A stretch of DNA of 64,000 bases, taken from Saccharospirillum mangrovi (GTDB taxonomy: Bacteria; Pseudomonadota; Gammaproteobacteria; Pseudomonadales; Natronospirillaceae). The DNA is taken from the NCBI RefSeq assembly GCF_003367315.1, contig NZ_CP031415.1, forward strand, positions 2,540,001 through 2,604,000, in the 5' to 3' direction. Every line of letters begins with the position of its first letter. Position 1 is the first letter of the stretch. The position numbers and the translations under genes are program-made. The notes under the pieces were generated by a model. That model worked only from the letters and a program-made list of their open reading frames with translations. It was not told where the DNA came from and searched no databases. This document shows, one piece after another, positions 11,760-61,582 of this stretch.

Positions 11760-12093
11760 TTGCCGAACTCATAATTGAGTCTTACCTACATACTGGCAGC
11801 GATAAGCGGACCGTCGCTCAGGAAGCCAGCAAGATGAATACGCCTTGAATGCCCGCAAAAACGTGCTTCACTTTTAAATCAGACGATAGACCCTCTGCCA
11901 TTAGCCTGATGAGGGTAAAAGTTATTCTTGGTGACGAATTAGCCACCACAAAAGCTCGCACATCAATTTATGTGAACGCAAGTTAGGTTACCGAGTGTTA
12001 TTAAGAACGACCCGAAGGCGCATAAAGACACACCTCTTTGCAGCTGATCTTGATGACTTAAAAGTAAACAAGCCCCACATAAAGGTTACTAAC
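11760..12093. other. Non-coding AT-rich stretch before the chemotaxis gene
   Basis: No convincing ORF. A weak hairpin ACCCTC...GAGGGT occurs at 11890-11916 without a T-tail. A GTTAGGT heptamer lies at 11982. No clear promoter was found, so transcription could come from the left Pho-box promoter or from an unrecognised internal one. Confidence 0.5.
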
Positions 12094-13938
12094 ATGTTAA
12101 AAAACCTGTTAGCAAAAATATCAGGTGGTAAGCAAATCACTATCGCCAAAGATGATTGGGTCAATGCTCAAGGTCAACTCGACGCATTAACTCGTTCACA
12201 AGCCATCATTGAGTTTGACTTACATGGCAATATTTTAATGGCCAATGACAACTTCTTGAACGCCTTAGGTTATTCGTTAGAAGAAGTTAAAGGCCAACAC
12301 CACAGCATTTTTGTCGATAACGCCTACCGTAATAGCCAAGCATACAAGGATTTTTGGGCCAGACTACGCAATGGTGAATTTCAAAGTGGTGAGTACTGTC
12401 GCTACTCGAAAAACGGTCAGGCAGTTTGGATTGAGGCTAGCTACAATCCTATTTTTGATGCCAACAAAAAACCCTACAAAATCGTAAAATTTGCCAGTGA
12501 TATCACCGCGAAGAAACTGCAAAATAGCGATTATGAAAGTCAACTAGAAGCCATATCCAAATCTCAAGCGGTCATCTCATTTAAACTGGATGGCACCATA
12601 CTTTCGGCAAATGACAATTTCTTAAACGCGCTTGGCTATACGCTCAATGAAGTGCAAGGTAAGCATCATCGTTTGTTTGTCGATTCCGAATACCAAAAAT
12701 CTGACGAGTATCGCAACTTCTGGGATAGACTGGCTAAGGGCGAACATTTTGTTGGTCGTTTTCCACGCGTTCATAAAAGCGGTAAAGTCATTTGGATACA
12801 AGCCAACTATAGCCCTATTTGTGACCCAACCGGTACGCCTTATAAAGTAGTGAAATTCGCCACGGATATTACGGCTGAAGTCGAAGCCGAACAACAGCTT
12901 CAACTGACCGTTAGCCAGGTGAACTCGGCCATTGATGCCGCGGTTAATAATGACCTTACCCAACGAGTGGCAACGGCAGACAAATCCGACATGATGCTCA
13001 GTATCTCAGAAGGCGTAAACTCCCTGCTTGATACCATGACAGAGATCATCATCAATATTAAAAATGCATCCGATGCTGTGTATAACGGTGCTCGTGAAAT
13101 CTCCAAAGGCAACACAGACCTTTCTAACCGCACTGAGCAACAAGCTTCTAGTCTGGAAGAAACAGCGTCTAGTTTGGAGGAGCTAACCACTACTGTTCGC
13201 CAAAATGCAGACAATGCCAAAGAGGCTAACAACTTGGCATCCAATGCAGTAGCAATCGCCTTGGATGGAGGTCACTTAATAGAAAACGTGGTGAAAACCA
13301 TGGACTCCATCAATGAATCCTCACAAAAAATTGCGGATATCATTGGCATGATTGATGGAATTGCTTTTCAAACCAATATCCTAGCACTTAACGCTGCGGT
13401 TGAGGCTGCTCGAGCGGGCGAACAAGGGCGAGGCTTTGCGGTTGTTGCATCGGAGGTAAGAACCTTAGCGCAACGCTCAGCGAATGCGGCAAAAAACATT
13501 AAAGATCTCATCTCCGAGTCAGCGGAGAAAATCAACAATGGTAATGAGCTGGTCAATAAATCCGGTGATACCATGCGAGAGGTCGTGACTGCGATCAAGC
13601 AGGTCAATGATATTATGACTGAGATCGCCAGCGCGTCTGCAGAACAATCAACCGGGTTGGATGAAATAGATAAGGCCGTCAGCCAAATGGATGAAATGAC
13701 TCAACAAAACGCCGCGCTTGTTGAAGAAGCTGCAGCGGCCTCTGAAAATCTATTAAGCCAAGCAGATCTATTAACCAATAATGTAAACCAATTTGCACTG
13801 ACCGAGAGCAATCATACTTCTCACAGCATTAAACCCATAGCGCATACAAACGCCAAAAAATCATCACCTAAACATGCTTCTGTGCACCCATTAACGTCCA
13901 ACGCTATCGCGATTAACAGGCCAAAACCGTCACTGTAA
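12094..13938 (+). CDS. Cytoplasmic methyl-accepting chemotaxis protein with two PAS domains (BdlA-like)
   Basis: A 614-residue chemotaxis transducer without membrane segments. Two tandem PAS/PAC modules (about 30-145 and 150-265) each contain the repeated pattern [11 protein letters not shown]...EV.G.HH..FVD and end in [10 protein letters not shown] or [15 protein letters not shown]-like linker ([17 protein letters not shown]) follows. Then comes a signalling domain with the conserved hairpin tip [20 protein letters not shown] and [20 protein letters not shown], which binds CheA/CheW. The layout equals BdlA of Pseudomonas aeruginosa, a biofilm-dispersal sensor, and related redox/energy sensors. 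No CheB/CheR pentapeptide tail is obvious. Start 12094 is preferred over an upstream in-frame GTG at 11995 because of AAAGG before it. Codon use is foreign to the neighbourhood. Confidence 0.92.
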
Positions 13939-14176
13939 CCTCAGCTCGATAATGACGAGGATAGTTGGGTGAATTTTTAAATAGCATGAAATCGATTTTT
14001 GGGCAGAGGCGATGGCCTACAACACTGACTACAAGTCCGCGCCTCAAGTGACGTGTTTTTATGCCCTTACACTTGCCTGTCCGCAGACCAAAATCGCGTC
14101 AATCTACAACTAAGCATGCCGCCCCGCACCTACCTCACGGACATAAGCCCGGCGAATACTGGCATAGATGTCACCG
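13939..14176. other. Non-coding region after the chemotaxis gene
   Basis: About 240 bp without a supported gene, repeat or terminator. Base composition drifts from AT-rich toward that of the chromosome in its right half. Confidence 0.5.
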
Positions 14177-35622: not shown

Positions 35623-36090
35623 TTATTCCTCGTCCGACAACGCCCGGCCTTCCAGTTTTACCAAAAATGCACGAATCGAATCGCTGACGTTTTCTTTCTG
35701 ATTGCTGCGACCGTTAAACAACACAATGCGCGCTTTACCATCGGTCGTAATCGTCTGCTGCCGCTCACTGAACACCGCGTATTCGTGCACAAAACCATGT
35801 TCCTGAATACTCAACGTACGGGCACCAACAAAGATGCGATCCGGATACGTCAGCGGCCGCCGGTAACGACACTCCGTGTGCCCAACCACCGGCCCGACGC
35901 CATTCGTTTTCATCTCATCAAACACCGGCGTGCGTTCGAAATACGCAATGCGGGCGTTTTCGAAGTAGCGGAAATAAACGACGTTGTTGACGTGGTTAAA
36001 AGCGTCCATATCACCCCATTGAACGGGTAGTTCGATGATGACGGGGTAGGTGTTTTTGAAGTCTTCCAGCATTTTGGCGTCCATTTGCAA
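35623..36090 (-). CDS. Acyl-CoA thioesterase (4HBT, YbgC-like hot-dog fold)
   Basis: 155 residues of the 4-hydroxybenzoyl-CoA thioesterase family. The catalytic Asp lies in the WGDMDAFNHVNNVVYFRYFE segment near residue 27, followed by ARIAYFE and VVGHTECRYRRPLTY. It hydrolyses acyl-CoA thioesters; chain length cannot be read. Monocistronic, converging on the first MocR gene. Confidence 0.87.
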   Translation of the reverse strand: MQMDAKMLEDFKNTYPVIIELPVQWGDMDAFNHVNNVVYFRYFENARIAYFERTPVFDEMKTNGVGPVVGHTECRYRRPLTYPDRIFVGARTLSIQEHGFVHEYAVFSERQQTITTDGKARIVLFNGRSNQKENVSDSIRAFLVKLEGRALSDEE

Positions 36091-36185
36091 CCGTTAATCC
36101 GAAGCTTACCGAAACCGGCTCGCACCCTACATATTTAAAGAAAAACCCTCTTCCGCCCAAAATCAGACGCCATTCACTCTTTAAG

Positions 36186-36214
36186 GTGTCAATTTTTTGG
36201 CGTTTTCATATAAT
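36186..36214 (+). promoter_or_regulatory. Sigma-70-like promoter before the large lipoprotein gene
   Basis: A perfect -10 TATAAT lies 17 bp after a GTGTCA element (4 of 6 matches to TTGACA). The predicted start of RNA is about 110 nt before the gene, leaving a GC-rich leader. Confidence 0.6.
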
Positions 36215-36228
36215 CCGCTCACGCCAAC

Positions 36229-36298
36229 CTGTGGGACGACCAGGGAATAGCGGCCCATACCCACAGCCGGCGAATACCGGGAGTTCGACCTCAACCCG
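36229..36298 (+). other. Structured 5' leader of the lipoprotein mRNA
   Basis: Contains the long-range pair CTGTGGG (36229-36235) / CCCACAG (36260-36266) and a following CCGGG / CCCGG pair (36277-36298). No known riboswitch consensus was recognised. Confidence 0.4.
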
Positions 36299-36332
36299 GC
36301 CTGAACATCATACGGATTGTGAAGAGGATCTT

Positions 36333-38321
36333 ATGAAGCACCTTACCTTACCCCTTACCTTACCTTTAGCGGCATTACTGATGACGGCCGGGTGCACACC
36401 CGGCGACAGTGGCGGGTCCAACCCTGAAACCGGAGCCAAAATGACGCTCGAAGGACGCGTCGCCGATGGCTACCTGGTGGGCGCACTGGTTTGTCTGGAC
36501 CTGAACAACAACGCCAATTGTGACGACAACGAACCCGATACAATCACCCTCGCCGGCGGGCATTACCGCCTGGAAGACATCACCAGACAGCAATATGAAC
36601 AAGGCCAATTGCTGGTTGAAGTTTCCGTCAACGCTCAGGATGAAGACGACAACAGCTTCGTAACCCGGCCCTATAAATTAACCACACCCAAAGGCCATGA
36701 AGCCTTTGTATCCCCCATCACAACGCTGATTGCCCGAACCCTGCAACTCGACCCGAACCTGAGTGAGGCAGCGGCGCTTGAACGATACGCGCTGGCATTT
36801 GGTCAGGAAAACCCGGAAAACCTGCTCGAGGATTTTGTATCCAACAGCGAACAAGGTGACCCATCCGCCGAAAAACTGCACCGCATCGCCCAACTGGTTG
36901 CCGACGTAATGGGCGAAACCAAATTCAATCTGGAAGGTAATCTTCAAGCCGCCGGGGGAGATGCAGTACAGCAGGCAAACGCTGTTGAGTTAACGCTCAC
37001 ACGGGCCATCACCAGAAATACGGAAGAGAGCAATAACTTACGAAAACTGGTGCTGGCAGCATTAGAAAATGACGCCACTCAGCAACAGCTTTTGATCAAT
37101 GATCTCCGCTCAACACTGGAGGCCGATGCGTCTGTTGAACAGACCCAAATACAACTGAACCAACTGGCCTCCGATAACCTGACACCCGCTGAGATCACCA
37201 CACTGTTCCGACAGGGTTTTGGTGAACTGACGATCTTCCCAGCCAGCTGGTGCGAAGCTAACTCCAGCGTAGTGTGCTTTGAAACCTGGGAAGTCAGCAC
37301 ACCCGACAACAGCAATGCGCTCAGCGTATTGGAAACTTTTTATGAATTTGATCAAAACGGTAATCTCACCACTACTGAGGACGATGACGACTACGTGGAT
37401 GACTATGAAGATGTCATCTGGTTGCTGGATAACAACGACCAATTTGAGCGAGTGGAATACAGTGGCATCTGGCGCAAAAGCACCATCAATGAAGACGGCT
37501 CCTACAGCAGCCATACCGTTTACCTGAAGGAAATTCCGTCGACAGATCCAGCCAGCTGGACCCTGGCTAACATCCAACCCTTTGCCGAAAAAATCGATAC
37601 GTTAACGATACCCGTATCAATTCGGGAGAAGAGTGTTGCCGGCGAAACACTGGTTGATATTCTGGACCGAATGTCAGCCGATGAAAGCGGAATACTGGAA
37701 TCGGCAGCCACACCGTTCAACGCCAACCTGACCTTTCCTGACGATTCCGTTGGCTACTGGGTTCAGTTCACACAGACCGACAGTCAAACTCTGATAAGCC
37801 CTTACGATGATGTCATGGTACTCCCTGACAATAACGAATGTGATGACGTCACCTGCGATGTCACGTTTTCAGCGTTGGATGATCTGTTTACCCTGAACAA
37901 TACCAATCTTGGTATTGAAGGCTGGGGTTACTTAAACAATGCAGACGACCTTTACATTTATCAGATCAAGTTCAATCCGTCTGAGGCGGGTCAATCCAGT
38001 GGAACCGCTGCGTTAATTCGGTGGTATTACGAAGACTATGAGCCGGTAAAAGACGTCAATTTCGCAGGCCAACTCAAATGGCAGCGCCATGCCGATTGGC
38101 ATGGCAAAGAAGCGATTGTCATTGATCGCTTGCAGGCCTACGAGTACGGAATGGATGCGATTGCATTGGTCGATGTCGGCGATGCCGTTGACGAGCCGGT
38201 ATTGTGGGCTGTAATCGACGAAGCGACCGACTATGACAATGACTACCTGCTCAATGGCGTCGCTCTGAAAACATTGACTGAGCAGCTGACATCCTACTTC
38301 AGCACAGAACCGGCTAACTAA
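36333..38321 (+). CDS. Large hypothetical lipoprotein
   Basis: 662 residues with a lipoprotein signal (MKHLTLPLTLPLAALLMTAGC). After the Cys comes a Gly/Ser linker and a segment typical of secreted proteins that hold a carboxypeptidase-like or Ca-binding repeat (VADGYLVGALVCLDLNNNAN, then CDDNEPD). The remainder is acidic and hydrophilic, without a recognised family; the stretch near 395-420 is very rich in Asp. Start by GAAGAGGA and the signal peptide. Base composition is less GC-rich than the surrounding core genes. Confidence 0.75.
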   Translation: MKHLTLPLTLPLAALLMTAGCTPGDSGGSNPETGAKMTLEGRVADGYLVGALVCLDLNNNANCDDNEPDTITLAGGHYRLEDITRQQYEQGQLLVEVSVNAQDEDDNSFVTRPYKLTTPKGHEAFVSPITTLIARTLQLDPNLSEAAALERYALAFGQENPENLLEDFVSNSEQGDPSAEKLHRIAQLVADVMGETKFNLEGNLQAAGGDAVQQANAVELTLTRAITRNTEESNNLRKLVLAALENDATQQQLLINDLRSTLEADASVEQTQIQLNQLASDNLTPAEITTLFRQGFGELTIFPASWCEANSSVVCFETWEVSTPDNSNALSVLETFYEFDQNGNLTTTEDDDDYVDDYEDVIWLLDNNDQFERVEYSGIWRKSTINEDGSYSSHTVYLKEIPSTDPASWTLANIQPFAEKIDTLTIPVSIREKSVAGETLVDILDRMSADESGILESAATPFNANLTFPDDSVGYWVQFTQTDSQTLISPYDDVMVLPDNNECDDVTCDVTFSALDDLFTLNNTNLGIEGWGYLNNADDLYIYQIKFNPSEAGQSSGTAALIRWYYEDYEPVKDVNFAGQLKWQRHADWHGKEAIVIDRLQAYEYGMDAIALVDVGDAVDEPVLWAVIDEATDYDNDYLLNGVALKTLTEQLTSYFSTEPAN

Positions 38322-38340
38322 ACGCTCATTAACCAGGGGC

Positions 38341-38387
38341 AGGATCGGAGTTATCAATGCGCCTCGTGCTCATTTGACTCCGATCCT
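38341..38387. repeat. Long-loop inverted repeat
   Basis: AGGATCGGAGT and ACTCCGATCCT form a perfect 11-bp pair around 25 bases, between the lipoprotein and GST genes. There is no T-run, so it is not a classical terminator; it may slow transcription or be a remnant of an element. Confidence 0.55.
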
Positions 38388-38486
38388 CCATTGTATTGCT
38401 CACCCTGCTCTGATTGATCGGCCACACTGAATCGCTGTTGCCGATCTGCAAGGCCAAAGCGGTAATCGGACGCCAGCCAGGCGGCA

Positions 38487-39089
38487 TCAAGCCACGCCGT
38501 TGGCCACCCAGTCAGTAAAACCTTTTTGTGCCGCGCAGCGACGAAAATAAGCGTCGATATGGGCGAACCGGCCAATTTGACCGATGGACTCGTACCAGCG
38601 ATTCACCGACAGTGCCAATGCGATGTCGCAGACCCGAAATTGCGCGCCAGTCACAAAGTCTTTATCAGCCAATTGATCATTCAGCAGCGCTACCTTGTCA
38701 TTCCAGTTACGGACCGATTGTTCAATCAAATCAGCGTTCTGAAAATCGGGGTTATTTCGAACCCTGGCCTGGAACGCATACACCCAAGCGCTGTTAAATT
38801 CCGCGAGCTGCCAATCCAACCATTGATCAATCAGCGATCGCACAGTCGGTGTTGATGGGTACAGATCACTGTCTGGAAACCGTCTCGCCAGATACCGCAG
38901 AATGGCGTTCGATTCCCACAGGCTAAAATCACCATCCGTTAATACGGGCACCAGGCGGTTAGGGTTCAATGTCGCCAATGTTTGTACATCTGGCTGTTCG
39001 ATGTGCTGAAACGGACACTCCAGGATGTCCAGACACCAGAGAATTTTCCGGACATTAATGGACGTGCTTCTTCCCAATAGAGTCATCAT
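38487..39089 (-). CDS. Glutathione S-transferase family protein
   Basis: 200 residues: an N-terminal thioredoxin-like domain (LLGRSTSINVRKILWCLDIL) with the glutathione-binding LVPVLTDGDFSLWESNAILRYLAR segment, and an all-helical C-terminal domain. The catalytic residue is probably Ser in GRSTS. Substrate unknown. Monocistronic and divergent from the calcineurin-like lipoprotein gene. Confidence 0.87.
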   Translation of the reverse strand: MMTLLGRSTSINVRKILWCLDILECPFQHIEQPDVQTLATLNPNRLVPVLTDGDFSLWESNAILRYLARRFPDSDLYPSTPTVRSLIDQWLDWQLAEFNSAWVYAFQARVRNNPDFQNADLIEQSVRNWNDKVALLNDQLADKDFVTGAQFRVCDIALALSVNRWYESIGQIGRFAHIDAYFRRCAAQKGFTDWVANGVA

Positions 39090-39265
39090 ATCGAGGCCTC
39101 GCTGAAGAGTTTTATAAACGCCAGTGTTCGTATCAATCCCGGCCCATGGTTTCAGTTAATTGTGACAACACCGTTCAACGTGGAATCCACGCTCCAATAG
39201 CGATACGCTGCGATTTAGCTACATTCAAATTGAATATTCACTCATACGTCGTCGCAGGTCTGTCA

Positions 39266-40147
39266 TTGAAACCTATTGTTGTGTCTCTTTTATTCGTTAT
39301 GAGTGCCCTCAGTGCCTGTACCAGCAGCACGACCGAATGGGCAGAAAATACACCCGGCAATCTCCCTGACCAGTATCGAATCTGCGTCCTCGGTGACGCA
39401 GGCACTGGCAAAGCCGAGCAATATCAAGTCAAAGATGCGTTGTTGCACGAAGGTTGCGACGAACTGCGCATGGTGGGTGACGTGATTTACGAGAATGGCA
39501 TTACCTCAGCCGACGACCCACAACTGTACGATAAGTTTCTAACTCCCTATGCAGACCTGCTCAGTGATCGGCCGTTCTATATTGCAATGGGAAATCACGA
39601 TCACAAAGCCGACGATACTGCCTGGATCGACGTCGCTCAAACCCACGAAAATGTAATTTTCCCCAGCCAATATTATGCGACACGTCGCGGCGACCTGTGC
39701 TTTATCACCCTAGATACAGAAGCCAGCTACCTCGCTCAAGTCCGATGGGTGCACAACTTGGAACCCGCCATGTCTGACTGTGCATTGCGCATTGCTTTTG
39801 GTCACCACCCCTATTTCAGCTCCGGTCATCACGGGGACGCCAATCCGGGCATGAAGCTCTTCCTGCGCACCACAGTAATGGGGGATACGGACCTCTATAT
39901 TGCCGGTCACGATCATCAACTCAGCGACGAAGGCCAACTGGAAAATACCCGCTTATTAATCAGTGGCGCCGCGGGGAAACTCAGAAACCTGAAAGAAGTG
40001 CCCCGGGTTTGGGGTGTATCGCAACTGGGCTATTTGGTGCTGATTGTGCACCGCGATCCGGACTTACTGGAGTATCAGTTCAAGACGGTAGAGGAAGATG
40101 GACTGGCATCCATAGCCTTCCACGACACGATGGATTTCCAACGCTGA
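39266..40147 (+). CDS. Calcineurin-like metallophosphoesterase lipoprotein
   Basis: A secreted phosphoesterase. Motifs VLGDAGTGK, VGDVIYENG, MGNHDHK, FGHHPYFSSG and AGHDHQLS give the five metal-binding blocks of the purple acid phosphatase-like group. A lipobox (LSAC) follows KPIVVSLLFVMSA. I place the start at TTG 39266 so that the signal peptide is N-terminal. An ATG at 39146 in the same frame would add 40 residues that would block lipidation, and it has no ribosome-binding site. Substrate unknown; no Pho box seen nearby. Confidence 0.78.
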   Translation: MKPIVVSLLFVMSALSACTSSTTEWAENTPGNLPDQYRICVLGDAGTGKAEQYQVKDALLHEGCDELRMVGDVIYENGITSADDPQLYDKFLTPYADLLSDRPFYIAMGNHDHKADDTAWIDVAQTHENVIFPSQYYATRRGDLCFITLDTEASYLAQVRWVHNLEPAMSDCALRIAFGHHPYFSSGHHGDANPGMKLFLRTTVMGDTDLYIAGHDHQLSDEGQLENTRLLISGAAGKLRNLKEVPRVWGVSQLGYLVLIVHRDPDLLEYQFKTVEEDGLASIAFHDTMDFQR

Positions 40148-57751: not shown

Positions 57752-59095
57752 ATGACGACTCCGACTACCGGAAACTACGATCGACAGCAGGAAATCGACG
57801 CCATCGCCCGCGACTGGGCAACCAACCCGCGCTGGCAAGGCATCCGCCGCAACTACAGCGCCGACGACGTGGTACGACTGCGCGGCTCGCTGAAACGCGA
57901 CAACACCATCGCCACCCGTGGCGCGGAAAAACTCTGGCAACTGGTCAACGAAGGCGGCCGGCCAGATTTTCGCCCCGACAAAGACTTCGTTAACGCCATG
58001 GGCGCGCTGACCGGCGGCCAGGCGGTTCAGCAAGTCAAAGCCGGGGTGCAGGCGATTTATCTGTCCGGCTGGCAGGTCGCGGCCGACGCCAACACCAGTG
58101 AAACCATGTACCCGGACCAATCGCTGTACGCGGTTGATTCCGTGCCCACCGTCGTGCGTCGCATCAACAACGCCTTTGAGCGCGCCGACCAGATTCAGTG
58201 GCAGGCCGGCAAACAACCGGGCGATGCCGATTACGTGGATTACTTCGCGCCCATCGTTGCCGACGCCGAAGCCGGCTTTGGCGGCGTATTGAACGCCTAT
58301 GAGCTGATGAAAAACATGATCCGCGCCGGCGCGTCCGGTGTGCATTTTGAAGACCAGCTCGCGGCGGTGAAAAAGTGCGGCCACATGGGCGGTAAAGTCT
58401 TGGTGCCGACGCAGGAAGCGGTACAGAAACTGACGGCTGCACGCTTAGCAGCCGACGTTGAAGGCGTGCCGTCGATCATCCTGGCGCGCACCGACGCCAA
58501 CGCCGCCGACCTGTTAACGTCCGACTGCGACCCCTGGGACGCCGAATTCCTGACCGGCGAGCGCACCTCCGAAGGTTTCTACCGGGTGCGCAACGGCATC
58601 GACCAGGCGATTTCCCGTGGCCTGGCCTACGCGCCGTACGCCGATCTGCTGTGGTGCGAAACCGCCACGCCGAATCTCGACGAAGCGAAAAAATTCGCCG
58701 AAGCGGTGCGCAAGGAATTCCCGGACCAGCTGCTGGCGTACAACTGCTCGCCGTCGTTCAACTGGAAGAAGAATCTGGACGACGCCACCATCGCCAGGTT
58801 CCAGACTGAGCTGTCGGCCATGGGCTACAAATTCCAGTTCATCACGCTGGCGGGCATTCACAACATGTGGCACGGCATGTTCAACCTGGCGTACCACTAC
58901 GCGCGCAAAGACATGTCGGCTTACGTCGAATTGCAGGAACAGGAATTCCGCGACGCCGACAAGGGCTACACCTTTGTGGCGCATCAGAAGGAAGTCGGCA
59001 CCGGCTACTTCGACGACATGACCACGGTGATTCAGGGCGGCAGTTCGTCCGTCACGGCGCTGACCGGCTCGACCGAAGAAGCGCAGTTCGCCTGA
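57752..59095 (+). CDS. aceA: Isocitrate lyase
   Basis: 447 residues. Cleaves isocitrate to glyoxylate and succinate, first step of the glyoxylate shunt. The active-site signature KKCGHMGGK is intact, with [18 protein letters not shown] upstream, [12 protein letters not shown] for metal binding, and [15 protein letters not shown]. Start at ATG 57752 by AGAGGA; an open frame to 57623 would add a non-conserved 43 residues. Divergent from the LysR gene. Confidence 0.96.
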
Positions 59096-59116
59096 GTGAT
59101 TCAAACCATTAAGACC

Positions 59117-59136
59117 GGGGCCGACGGGTTGGCCCC
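59117..59136 (+). terminator. Weak hairpin terminator after aceA
   Basis: GGGGCC-GACGGGTT-GGCCCC followed by TTCCCCTTT; the stem is strong but the T-run is broken. Confidence 0.55.
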
Positions 59137-59206
59137 TTCCCCTTTGGCGTCGCGTGCGGCGCCTTTTTCGTTGACCGTTGTATTTTCGTTGCCCGTTGTT
59201 TTTTCA

Positions 59207-59234
59207 TTGACAGTTCTGGGGTGCCACTTAGACT
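59207..59234 (+). promoter_or_regulatory. Sigma-70 promoter of the PheRS-like gene
   Basis: Perfect TTGACA at 59207-59212, 16-bp spacer, TAGACT at 59229-59234 (4 of 6). RNA would start near 59241 and leave a leader of about 190 nt. Confidence 0.68.
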
Positions 59235-59240
59235 GGCGCG

Positions 59241-59428
59241 CATGAACAACTGGATTCGCACTCTCCGATTTACTGACCTCCGAGCCTTGCAAGTGGGCGC
59301 GGCGGTCTGACTTTTCCTGTCTGAAAAGCCATCTCCGAGCCCCGGTTCGGAGGATTCCAAAACCAACGCATTGGAATGAATTTGATTCAAGCGTCCTCGC
59401 TTGAGTCCTGGCTTTTTGGAGATCAAAG
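59241..59428 (+). ncRNA. Structured mRNA leader with four consecutive hairpins
   Basis: Predicted stems by eye: CTTTTC/GAAAAG (59311-59328); CTCCGA/TCGGAG (59333-59352); ATTCCAA/TTGGAAT (59354-59377); TCAAGCG/CGCTTGA (59387-59404). CCTCCGA at 59277-59283 can instead pair with TCGGAGG at 59347-59353, so two mutually exclusive folds exist. Two short frames are in the leader: 22 codons from 59242 (MNNWIRTLRF...) and 18 codons from 59376 (MNLIQASSLESWLFGDQR). The second frame's TGA overlaps the ATG of the gene. No T-box consensus is present. Confidence 0.6.
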
Positions 59429-59432
59429 ATGA
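59376..59432 (+). CDS. Possible 18-codon leader peptide coupled to the PheRS-like gene
   Basis: ATG at 59376, reading MNLIQASSLESWLFGDQR, stop TGA overlapping the ATG of the next gene. It has only GGA close upstream, and its start codon lies in the third hairpin. May be chance; kept for its coupling to the gene. Confidence 0.3.
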   Translation: MNLIQASSLESWLFGDQR

Positions 59433-60556
59433 ATACCCAGCTCACCGCCGAGCAATTGGTCGCGGCCTTGTCACTGCGCGATTTAAGCAACCCGGCGCAA
59501 GGCCCGCACGCCATCCAGTTATTGCTCGACGCCATTCAAACCCACCTGACCGACACCTATCAGGCACCGCTGCAACGCCTGCCCGCCTCGCCTTTGGTGC
59601 CGGTGACGCAGAACTACGACGCGCTCGGTTATCCGCCCGACGGCCCGGCACGCGAGGCGCGTTACAGCCGTTATCTGTCCGACGACTGGATGTTACGCAC
59701 CCAAACTTCGGCGCTGGTGCCCACCTGGCTGCAATCCTGGCCGGACAAAACGCCGCGTCGCTTAATGCTGCTGACGCATGGCCTGGTGTACCGACGCGAC
59801 AGCATCGACCGGCTGCATTGCGCCGAACCGCACCAGGCGGATATCTGGATTCTGCTGCCTCGCTCGGAACTGATCGATGAACAGCGAATGGTGCGCACCG
59901 CCATTGGCGAGCTGTGTCAGGCGATTCTGCCCGACCAGGCCATCAGCCTCAGCCGCTCGCCCCACCCTTACACCCAGGACGGTCTGCAACTCGACGCGCT
60001 GACCGCCAAAGGCGAACTGGTGGAAATTGGCGAGTGCGGTCGCATCGACCCCGGCTTGCTGGCACGCACCGGCTGGAACCCGAACGACGTGACCGGCATC
60101 GCCATCGGGCTCGGCCTGGATCGACTGTTAATGGTGCGCAAGCAACTGCCCGACATCCGCCTGCTGCGCAACGCCGACCCGCGTGTCGCCGAGCAAATGC
60201 TGGATCTGGAACCGTGGCGGCCGGTGTCGTGGCAGCCAGCCATTGAGCGCGATCTGTCGATTGCCACCGACAACGCCACGGACGCCGAACTGCTCGGCGA
60301 TCAAGTGCGGCAAGCGCTCACCGATCAGGCCGACTGGCTCGAAATGGTGCAAGTGCTCAGCGAAACGCCAGCGCACGCACTGCCACCGCAGGCGGTCGAA
60401 CGATTGGGCCTGAAATCCGGGCAAAAAAACCTGCTGTTGCGGCTGGTGATCCGGCACCCGACCCGCAGCATCACTCAGGCCGAAGCCAATGCGTTGCGTA
60501 ACCGCGTCTATCAGTCGGTGCACCGTGGCGAGGTGATGCACTGGGCTAACGACTGA
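59429..60556 (+). CDS. Single-chain phenylalanyl-tRNA synthetase-like protein (mitochondrial type: PheS core plus FDX-ACB domain)
   Basis: 375 residues. A class II aminoacyl-tRNA synthetase core related to PheS carries motif 2 (GLVYRRDSIDRLHCAEPHQADI) and motif 3 (AIGLGLDRLLMVRKQLPDIR). It is followed by a C-terminal FDX-ACB anticodon-binding domain (about 280-375: QPAIERDLSIATDNA and LLLRLVIRHPTRSITQAEAN). This is the domain order of monomeric mitochondrial PheRS, not of the bacterial alpha2-beta2 enzyme. The insert GECGRIDPGLL aligns with the mitochondrial ELG/CG element. The PHQ in motif 2 replaces the usual FHQ. Function could be tRNA charging, an analogue-resistant paralogue, or amino-acid activation for another purpose. 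Single gene behind a structured leader. Confidence 0.8.
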   Translation: MNTQLTAEQLVAALSLRDLSNPAQGPHAIQLLLDAIQTHLTDTYQAPLQRLPASPLVPVTQNYDALGYPPDGPAREARYSRYLSDDWMLRTQTSALVPTWLQSWPDKTPRRLMLLTHGLVYRRDSIDRLHCAEPHQADIWILLPRSELIDEQRMVRTAIGELCQAILPDQAISLSRSPHPYTQDGLQLDALTAKGELVEIGECGRIDPGLLARTGWNPNDVTGIAIGLGLDRLLMVRKQLPDIRLLRNADPRVAEQMLDLEPWRPVSWQPAIERDLSIATDNATDAELLGDQVRQALTDQADWLEMVQVLSETPAHALPPQAVERLGLKSGQKNLLLRLVIRHPTRSITQAEANALRNRVYQSVHRGEVMHWAND

Positions 60557-60600
60557 CCAAACGACAGACCATAGGGCGTAAAACCTTCGGCCACTGATCC

Positions 60601-60638
60601 AGCCCAACGCACAAGCCTGGTGCGTTGGGCTTTCTTTT
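60601..60638 (+). terminator. Strong terminator after the PheRS-like gene
   Basis: AGCCCAACGCAC-AAGCCTG-GTGCGTTGGGCT followed by TTCTTTT. Confidence 0.93.
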
Positions 60639-60787
60639 AAGCCCACTCACAGCAAACCATTTTCGCTCATCGCCACCGCAGCCCGGCAATCCTCGGGTTA
60701 ATCGGACGCTGGCGCACTCCTTGCTGAGCGATGTCGCCTATTCAACTAACAATTGACTCACTAACGACCCCTGAAACAGGAAGAACG

Positions 60788-61582
60788 ATGTCCATTAAAC
60801 GCACCCTCAGCCGAATTCTTTTTGTCGCCGCCACCTTGGTCGGTGCCGTATCCGTCAGCCACGCCGACGTGCTGGAAGACATCCAACAGCGCCAGGTATT
60901 GCGCGTTGCCGTACCGCAGGATTTTCCGCCCTTTGGTTCCGTCGGTACCGACTTGCAACCCCAAGGTTTTGATATCGACATGGCGCAGTACGTGGCCGAT
61001 CAACTGGGCGTCGAACTGGAACTGATTCCGGTCACCAGCGCCAACCGCATTCCCTATCTGCAAACCCGAAAAGCCGATCTGGTAATTTCCAGCCTGGGCA
61101 AAAACCCCGAGCGTGAACGCGCCATCGATTTCACCGCGCCCTACGCACCGTTCTTTTTAGGCGTCTTCGGCGCCAGCGATCTGAGCGTTGCCTCAGCTGA
61201 CGATCTGGCCGGCATGACCGTCGGCGTTACGCGCGGCGCCGTCGAAGATCTGGAACTGGAAAAAATCGCGCCGTCGAGCACCACCATTCAGCGTTTTGAA
61301 GACAACAACACCACCTTGTCAGCCTATCTGTCCGGTCAGGTGGATTTGATTGCCACCGGCAATCTGGTCGCCACCGAAATTGCCACGCGCAATCCGAACC
61401 GCGCCCCGGAAGCCAAATTCATGCTGAAAAACTCACCCTGCTACATCGGCTTGATGAAAGGCGAAACCGCGTTGCAGGCGCGCGTTAATGAAATCATCGC
61501 CGGCGCCCTCGCCGACGGAACTCTGAACGAGATCTCCATGAAATGGTTGCGCGCACCGCTGCCTGCAGACCTGGGTGCCTAA
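60788..61582 (+). CDS. Polar amino acid ABC transporter, periplasmic binding protein
   Basis: 264 residues. Signal peptide (SRILFVAATLVGAVSVSHA) and a family 3 solute-binding fold: LRVAVPQDFPPFGSVG, GFDIDMAQYVADQLGVELEL, TRKADLVISSLGKNPERERA. First gene of a four-gene operon; binds a polar amino acid, identity unknown. ATG by an AGGAAG site. About 150 bp separate it from the previous terminator. Confidence 0.92.
   Translation: MSIKRTLSRILFVAATLVGAVSVSHADVLEDIQQRQVLRVAVPQDFPPFGSVGTDLQPQGFDIDMAQYVADQLGVELELIPVTSANRIPYLQTRKADLVISSLGKNPERERAIDFTAPYAPFFLGVFGASDLSVASADDLAGMTVGVTRGAVEDLELEKIAPSSTTIQRFEDNNTTLSAYLSGQVDLIATGNLVATEIATRNPNRAPEAKFMLKNSPCYIGLMKGETALQARVNEIIAGALADGTLNEISMKWLRAPLPADLGA

Follow-up and report, generated by a model that had tools for sequence, protein, structure and literature searches.

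SrmL, a protein of Saccharospirillum mangrovi, appears to be an auxiliary single-chain phenylalanyl-tRNA synthetase (PheRS) that would be induced when Phe-tRNAPhe runs short, a reading to which we assign a probability of about two in three. The parts of this reading differ in strength: ribosome-mediated attenuation by Phe-tRNA in the leader of srmL is very probable on the evidence of its sequence, PheRS activity of the protein is likely on the same kind of evidence, and a role in resistance or as a backup is an even proposition. Because the RNA switch reads a Phe codon, production of the spare enzyme is probably confined to times of failure of the normal one. The window analyzed is a stretch of 64,000 nucleotides (contig NZ_CP031415.1, positions 2,540,001 to 2,604,000), and all coordinates without further label are those of the window. 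(Its GC content, about 0.60 elsewhere, drops to 0.44 at 12001-14000 and to about 0.51 at 36001-40000; these segments are possibly foreign DNA.)

The srmL reading frame is intact from ATG to TGA and encodes 375 amino acids. The protein belongs to NCBIfam family NF051887 (480.9 bits over residues 16-367, cut-off 300), which carries the name 'PheS-related mystery ligase SrmL' and no function, and it falls below the cut-off of the bacterial PheS model (77 vs 237 bits). Pfam places tRNA-synt_2d at residues 59-257 (E 2e-27) and a sub-threshold FDX-ACB match at residues 269-365 (E 1.3e-5). The AlphaFold2 model (pLDDT 90.4, pTM 0.85) has an intact fold, and Foldseek aligns the whole of it with human mitochondrial PheRS (E 2.7e-25, TMq 0.78); the mitochondrial PheRS-tRNAPhe complex 3tup is also among its structural matches. 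Pfam, alignment and structural prediction thus uphold what the initial annotation had described, a PheS-type core with motifs 2 and 3 followed by a C-terminal FDX-ACB domain; the motif Arg residues, whose absence it had named as an argument against a synthetase, are present. The pheS/pheT search that it proposed finds both genes: the genome also has a normal PheS (340 aa) and PheT (793 aa), about 0.5 Mb from srmL. A single chain combining PheS core and FDX-ACB domain in a pheST-bearing bacterium makes SrmL a second PheRS-like enzyme. Comparison of srmL with an 80%-identical orthologue gives dN 0.148 and dS about 1.46, and the gene is therefore under purifying selection.

Table 1. Position of srmL, its leader and its RNA elements in the window
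Feature	Position	Strand	Remarks
Sigma-70 promoter TTGACA-16-TAGACT	59207-59234	+	10/12 consensus
Leader peptide ORF MNNWIRTLRFTDLRALQVGAAV, then stop	59242-59310	+	Arg-Phe core upstream of srmL in 12/12 distinct cellular loci
Control codons CGA-UUU (Arg-Phe), proposed stall site	59266-59271	+	Identical in 12/12 cellular leaders
Leader hairpin, 5' arm GACC-CCG-GCC	59275-59307	+	Ribosome stalled at UUU would mask the hairpin
CUUUUC/GAAAAG hairpin directly after leader stop	59311-59328	+	Invariant in 6 relatives; excludes the closing stem
Closing stem, 5' arm CUGAAAAGCCA	59321-59331	+	Pairs with 59409-59419
Three internal hairpins within closing stem	59333-59352, 59354-59377, 59384-59407	+	
Closing stem, 3' arm UGGCUUUUUGG	59409-59419	+	U-run; extends into the first two bases of the srmL Shine-Dalgarno
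srmL, single-chain PheRS-like protein	59429-60556	+	NF051887, Pfam, AlphaFold2/Foldseek
Catalytic core, residues 27-258	59507-60202	+	Sequence motifs, alignment
Core motifs VYRRD (120-124), PHQxDxW (134-140), HPYT (179-182), GECG (201-204), GLGLDR (227-232)			
FDX-ACB (anticodon-binding type) domain, residues 269-365	60233-60523	+	Pfam, model, Foldseek
Intrinsic terminator of srmL, 12 pairs	60601-60631	+	

SrmL has class II motifs 1-3 with the motif 2 and motif 3 Arg residues of a PheRS. Among 13 aligned family members, Pro55 of motif 1 is kept in at least 90%, Arg122/Arg123 of motif 2 and Arg232 of motif 3 are invariant, and all ATP-binding class II motif residues persist across highly divergent members. 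Alignment with PheS and human mitochondrial PheRS shows these residues to be kept and the amino acid site to be changed in a fixed way. (What this means in detail is that YFPFT becomes xHxYT, with H179 and Y181 replacing the two FPF Phe residues; G-C/A-G becomes E-C-G, with E202 in place of Gly; FHQxEG becomes PHQxDxW, with D138 and W140; and AFG becomes A-I/M/L-G, with Ala225 unchanged.) The FPF...(A)FG signature of the PheRS phenylalanine pocket is accordingly not found in SrmL, and the altered pocket is common to every SrmL member and unlike every PheRS compared. In the PheRS family the changed positions are known to contact the Phe ring, the two FPF Phe residues stacking on the substrate. 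Since the pocket differs so consistently, Phe is the presumed substrate of SrmL and the true one may not be Phe; as read from the alignment, the change could shut out an inhibitor or point to another substrate.

The regulatory unit in front of srmL (59207-59428) was absent from the initial annotation. Search for sigma-70 promoters upstream of srmL yields one (0.3 expected), and its -10 box ends 8 nt 5' of the leader ATG, a spacing that recurs at loci L044, L040 and L045. With the -10 box this close, leaderless translation of the leader ORF, from the very 5' end of the mRNA, is probable. This promoter and the terminator downstream of the gene make the srmL unit self-contained, and the unit is monocistronic. 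Rfam detects nothing significant (riboswitch, T-box) in 59000-60800.

Phe-codon leader ORFs lie 5' of all 14 solitary srmL genes checked (12 cellular, 2 viral). The cellular leaders, from 12 distinct genes, comprise 22-26 codons, each with CGA-TTT, and have a single Phe codon except for L039, which has a second. CGA TTT is fixed as codons, not merely as residues, and the flanking leader residues vary freely; in neighboring genes CGA accounts for 6-21% of Arg codons and TTT for 15-67% of Phe codons. Among 57 genomes of relatives searched, the leader motif of the window's clade stands directly 5' of srmL in 6, and elsewhere in those 57 it has just two matches, each with 2 mismatches. Between the window and its close relative Saccharospirillum sp. 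MSK14-1 (loci L033/L044), a leader core of ~95 nt is nearly identical; the synonymous sites of srmL differ by 64% between the window and L044. No Phe-codon leader of the srmL type was found upstream of the genome's own pheS. CGA is a slowly read codon, and its place next to the single UUU may sensitize the cellular leader. (A single Phe codon is unusual and speaks somewhat against attenuation, since attenuators usually have two or more control codons; PMC1183508.) The viral leaders look like classical phe leaders: MNTNTTFNFFFSHKMV, in a 635-kb phage record, has 4 Phe codons, and MNMLNKNNFSFFMFDFFGTQARG..., on a 181-kb contig, has 6, both with no CGA. The constant element of the leaders is thus Phe.

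RNA structure capable of terminating transcription or of sequestering the Shine-Dalgarno sequence separates the leader from srmL. A terminator scan places a canonical terminator in this interval at 6 loci, and at each of these the 3' half of the leader pairs with the 5' arm of the terminator more strongly than the mean of mononucleotide shuffles (fractions of shuffles as strong: 0.006, 0.042, 0.15, 0.03, 0.006 and 0.016). Antiterminator and terminator pairing are mutually exclusive at these 6 loci; the window's clade uses a different OFF state, a closed multi-hairpin structure in place of a canonical terminator. In the window, this OFF fold hides the U-run together with the two leading bases of the srmL Shine-Dalgarno (GGAG, 59418-59421). 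The leader folds with a z of -3.93 (0/200 shuffles fold as well), and in the closed structure 6 pairs have changes on both sides that keep the pair among five relatives. The CUUUUC/GAAAAG hairpin, to which its position and pairing would assign the switching role, is conserved in 6 relatives without covariation, and the first leader hairpin varies too little within the window's clade for covariation to be counted.

The proposed course of events is as follows. A strong promoter would transcribe the leader, whose short ORF contains the CGA-UUU codon pair. As long as Phe-tRNAPhe is plentiful, translation would proceed to the leader stop codon and the downstream RNA would fold into its OFF state, a terminator in most clades and, in the window's clade, the closed multi-hairpin structure burying the U-run and the start of the Shine-Dalgarno. 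In the latter case CUUUUC would be covered by a ribosome at the leader stop (OFF) and would stay available for the ON state when the ribosome stalls at UUU. When Phe-tRNAPhe is scarce, stalling at UUU would mask the first leader hairpin and allow the antiterminating fold; SrmL would then be made and Phe-tRNAPhe restored. The likeliest benefit to the bacterium would be survival when PheST is inhibited by an antibiotic, a toxin or an amino acid analogue that the altered pocket of SrmL would not bind. (Family membership, fold, motifs, conservation of the leader, its RNA structure, the mutually exclusive pairings and the viral context are observed; we infer Phe as substrate, charging of tRNAPhe, induction and the role in resistance.)

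SrmL is sporadically distributed: it is found above cut-off in 9 of 57 genomes of relatives (S. mangrovi included), in 3 of 369 genomes sampled from the class and in 1 of 398 sampled from the phylum. It also occurs on a plasmid of Azotobacter chroococcum and, among the actinobacterial copies, which are those found on plasmids, on a Glutamicibacter nicotianae plasmid, where a chloramphenicol exporter gene, cmx, is its neighbor and tet(33) lies 8 kb away. Two Corynebacterium plasmids hold 5'-truncated remnants of SrmL between erm(X) and tet(65) (L038, 8740-9645; L065, 4824-5249), which suggests an older intact copy on these resistance plasmids. Besides srmL itself, no gene recurs near it in more than 3 of 15 loci, and this lack of a conserved neighborhood argues against a pathway or carrier-protein partner. 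A PylRS-like pair of synthetase and dedicated tRNA was considered and rejected, since there is no such tRNA nearby at the bacterial srmL loci. The srmL unit is gained and lost on its own. Both the scattered occurrence and the location of plasmid copies close to cmx, tet(33), erm(X) and tet(65) are in keeping with a gene for resistance or backup; the case for resistance is circumstantial.

Five viral records contain SrmL: the 635-kb phage record (LR745206.1) and IMG/VR contigs of 517, 508, 181 and 578 kb. The IMG/VR contigs were found with an alignment and viral members as queries; a viral scan with the SrmL protein of the window alone gave no match. The leader region of LR745206.1 (L049, 14860-15000, unannotated) has, in addition to its leader peptide, an antiterminator (GUCUGAG/CUCAGAC) and a terminator before SrmL, and is by its sequence a textbook Phe attenuator. 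No leader was found at the three other viral SrmL genes in which one was sought (L050, L051 and L071); each of the three lies a short distance 3' of another gene or a tRNA. On the 578-kb contig SrmL lies directly 3' of tRNA-Phe(GAA) and tRNA-Val (17 tRNA genes are predicted within the 4 kb directly upstream; L071, 1-3956). On the 508-kb contig it lies in an island with synthetases of Lys, Trp, Ser, His, Gly, Ala and Tyr type and with tRNAs for the same seven amino acids plus two tRNA-Phe. Each recognized synthetase there has its matching tRNA, no PheRS other than SrmL was found on the contig, and SrmL fits tRNA-Phe. (The region, IMGVR_UViG_3300049793_000366, 395001-434800, L053/L054, holds 8 synthetase-type genes and 29 predicted tRNAs, and some of the synthetases are unusually short: HisRS-like 211 aa, TrpRS-like 240, AlaRS-like 240 and GlyRS-like 266 aa.) Giant-phage-like elements would also use SrmL, within their own tRNA and synthetase sets. 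Near SrmL, the 181-kb contig (L052) encodes repeat proteins and a protein resembling diguanylate cyclases (GGEEF), and this contig may be bacterial rather than viral.

The initial annotation called SrmL mitochondrial-type, a term that holds for the architecture (single chain, PheS core plus FDX-ACB) and finds no support for descent in the core tree. A shared lineage, with SrmL derived from organellar PheRS or the organellar enzyme from SrmL, would account for the same domain order, a similar junction between core and FDX-ACB, the mitochondrial enzymes as best structural matches, and the motif 2 sequence VYRRDxID common to SrmL and human mitochondrial PheRS. Against this, the catalytic-core tree unites all 16 SrmL rows in one clade (100/100) and places human mitochondrial PheRS on the bacterial PheS side, in a tree with one mitochondrial sequence on a long branch and no outgroup. 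The phylogeny that was called for thus sets the SrmL clade apart from human mitochondrial PheRS and leaves an organellar origin unsupported, as far as a single long-branched mitochondrial sequence allows, which makes the result on descent weak. SrmL also scores 110.3 bits with the mitochondrial PheRS model TIGR00469, below its cut-off of 258.35. Organellar kinship is, on balance, quite improbable.

The remaining alternatives turn on what SrmL loads and onto what. It might charge tRNAPhe with a different Phe-like amino acid (hydroxylated or amino-substituted, for example) or screen out a toxic analogue, a shortage of Phe-tRNA then permitting substitution at Phe codons. The HxYT/ExCG signature, which bacterial and viral members share without exception and which none of the PheRS compared shows, implies a pocket that is selected rather than drifting, and A225 stays in place at its bottom. 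On the other hand, no biosynthetic neighbor accompanies srmL, and the viral islands otherwise hold just canonical synthetases matched to canonical tRNAs, which leaves this explanation unlikely. The altered residues could alternatively mark a catalytically damaged paralogue retained for regulation, through tRNAPhe binding or trans-editing; conservation of the ATP-binding class II residues across highly divergent members, strong purifying selection and the lack of an editing (B3/B4-type) domain in SrmL make that very improbable. A non-translational ligase acting on a protein, an antibiotic or a metabolite, whose leader senses a ribosome-stalling drug at Arg-Phe in the manner of erm/cat leaders, would suit the mystery ligase name given by NCBI, the copies adjoining cmx and erm(X)/tet(65) on resistance plasmids, and the fixation of the CGA-UUU dipeptide, as in drug-arrest motifs. 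However, the viral leaders with runs of Phe codons and no CGA point to tRNAPhe, and attenuator pairings form downstream of the stall codon; conservation of the FDX-ACB domain and the placement of SrmL within tRNA/synthetase islands also count against such a ligase, which is rather unlikely.

An auxiliary PheRS under Phe-tRNA control is the reading that we prefer. Of the three options raised by the initial annotation, a functional second PheRS and a resistance copy fit best, given the Phe-codon leader, the viral tRNA-Phe/synthetase islands and the actinobacterial copies on resistance plasmids; a dedicated amino acid activator fits poorly, because there are no conserved neighbors and the FDX-ACB domain is well conserved. 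A bolder version is possible, though we would sooner bet against it: bacteria and giant-phage-like elements would share an unrecognized family of single-chain PheRS that stand alone, equipped with a Phe-tRNA attenuator and conferring inducible resistance to a natural PheRS inhibitor, its rebuilt pocket perhaps loading a non-standard aromatic amino acid.

Several related systems are known. Mitochondrial PheRS (FARS2; TIGR00469, PDB 3cmq/3tup) is likewise a single chain of PheS core and FDX-ACB with no editing domain, but has FPF in the pocket where SrmL has HxY, and is not its sister in the core tree. The E. coli pheM-pheST attenuator also couples a Phe-codon leader peptide to mutually exclusive RNA folds before a PheRS gene; srmL differs in being an auxiliary one-gene PheRS, and its cellular leaders in having one invariant CGA-UUU. 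The auxiliary, indolmycin-resistant TrpRS1 of Streptomyces coelicolor (Vecchione & Sello 2010, reference 57 in PMC4787780) is likewise described as a second synthetase from a separate lineage, whose gene is attenuated through the ribosome in response to the enzyme's own amino acid; srmL differs in the amino acid (Phe, not Trp), the synthetase class (II, not I) and the Arg-Phe control codons. SrmL is, moreover, spread over Pseudomonadota, Actinomycetota and viral contigs, and its part in resistance is presumed. The plasmid-borne mupirocin-resistant IleRS2 (mupA) is, like SrmL, a divergent second synthetase carried on plasmids; its inhibitor is mupirocin, whereas for SrmL linkage to plasmids is what is seen and an inhibitor is hypothetical. 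Among the duplicated synthetases listed in one review (PMC9437257) there is no PheRS. PheRS is the target of ochratoxin A, an analogue of Phe (PMC7916415).

No paper on SrmL was found in the openly accessible literature, and the family name is known; what is offered here is therefore a new functional assignment, a variant of the attenuated spare synthetase, and what is known of NF051887 is extended by the leader, the viral contigs and the tRNA-Phe context. The named 'mystery ligase' family thereby acquires a testable function, that of a self-sufficient bacterial PheRS encoded by one gene, as is familiar from mitochondria, and the cognate tRNA is spelled out in the srmL leader. On a viral contig, a Phe attenuator would be an uncommon type of regulator, and genetic-code engineering could profit from so small a single-chain PheRS whose pocket is altered. 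Should SrmL confer resistance, this would predict a natural inhibitor of PheRS that is yet to be discovered, as well as plasmid-borne resistance to the PheRS drugs now in development.
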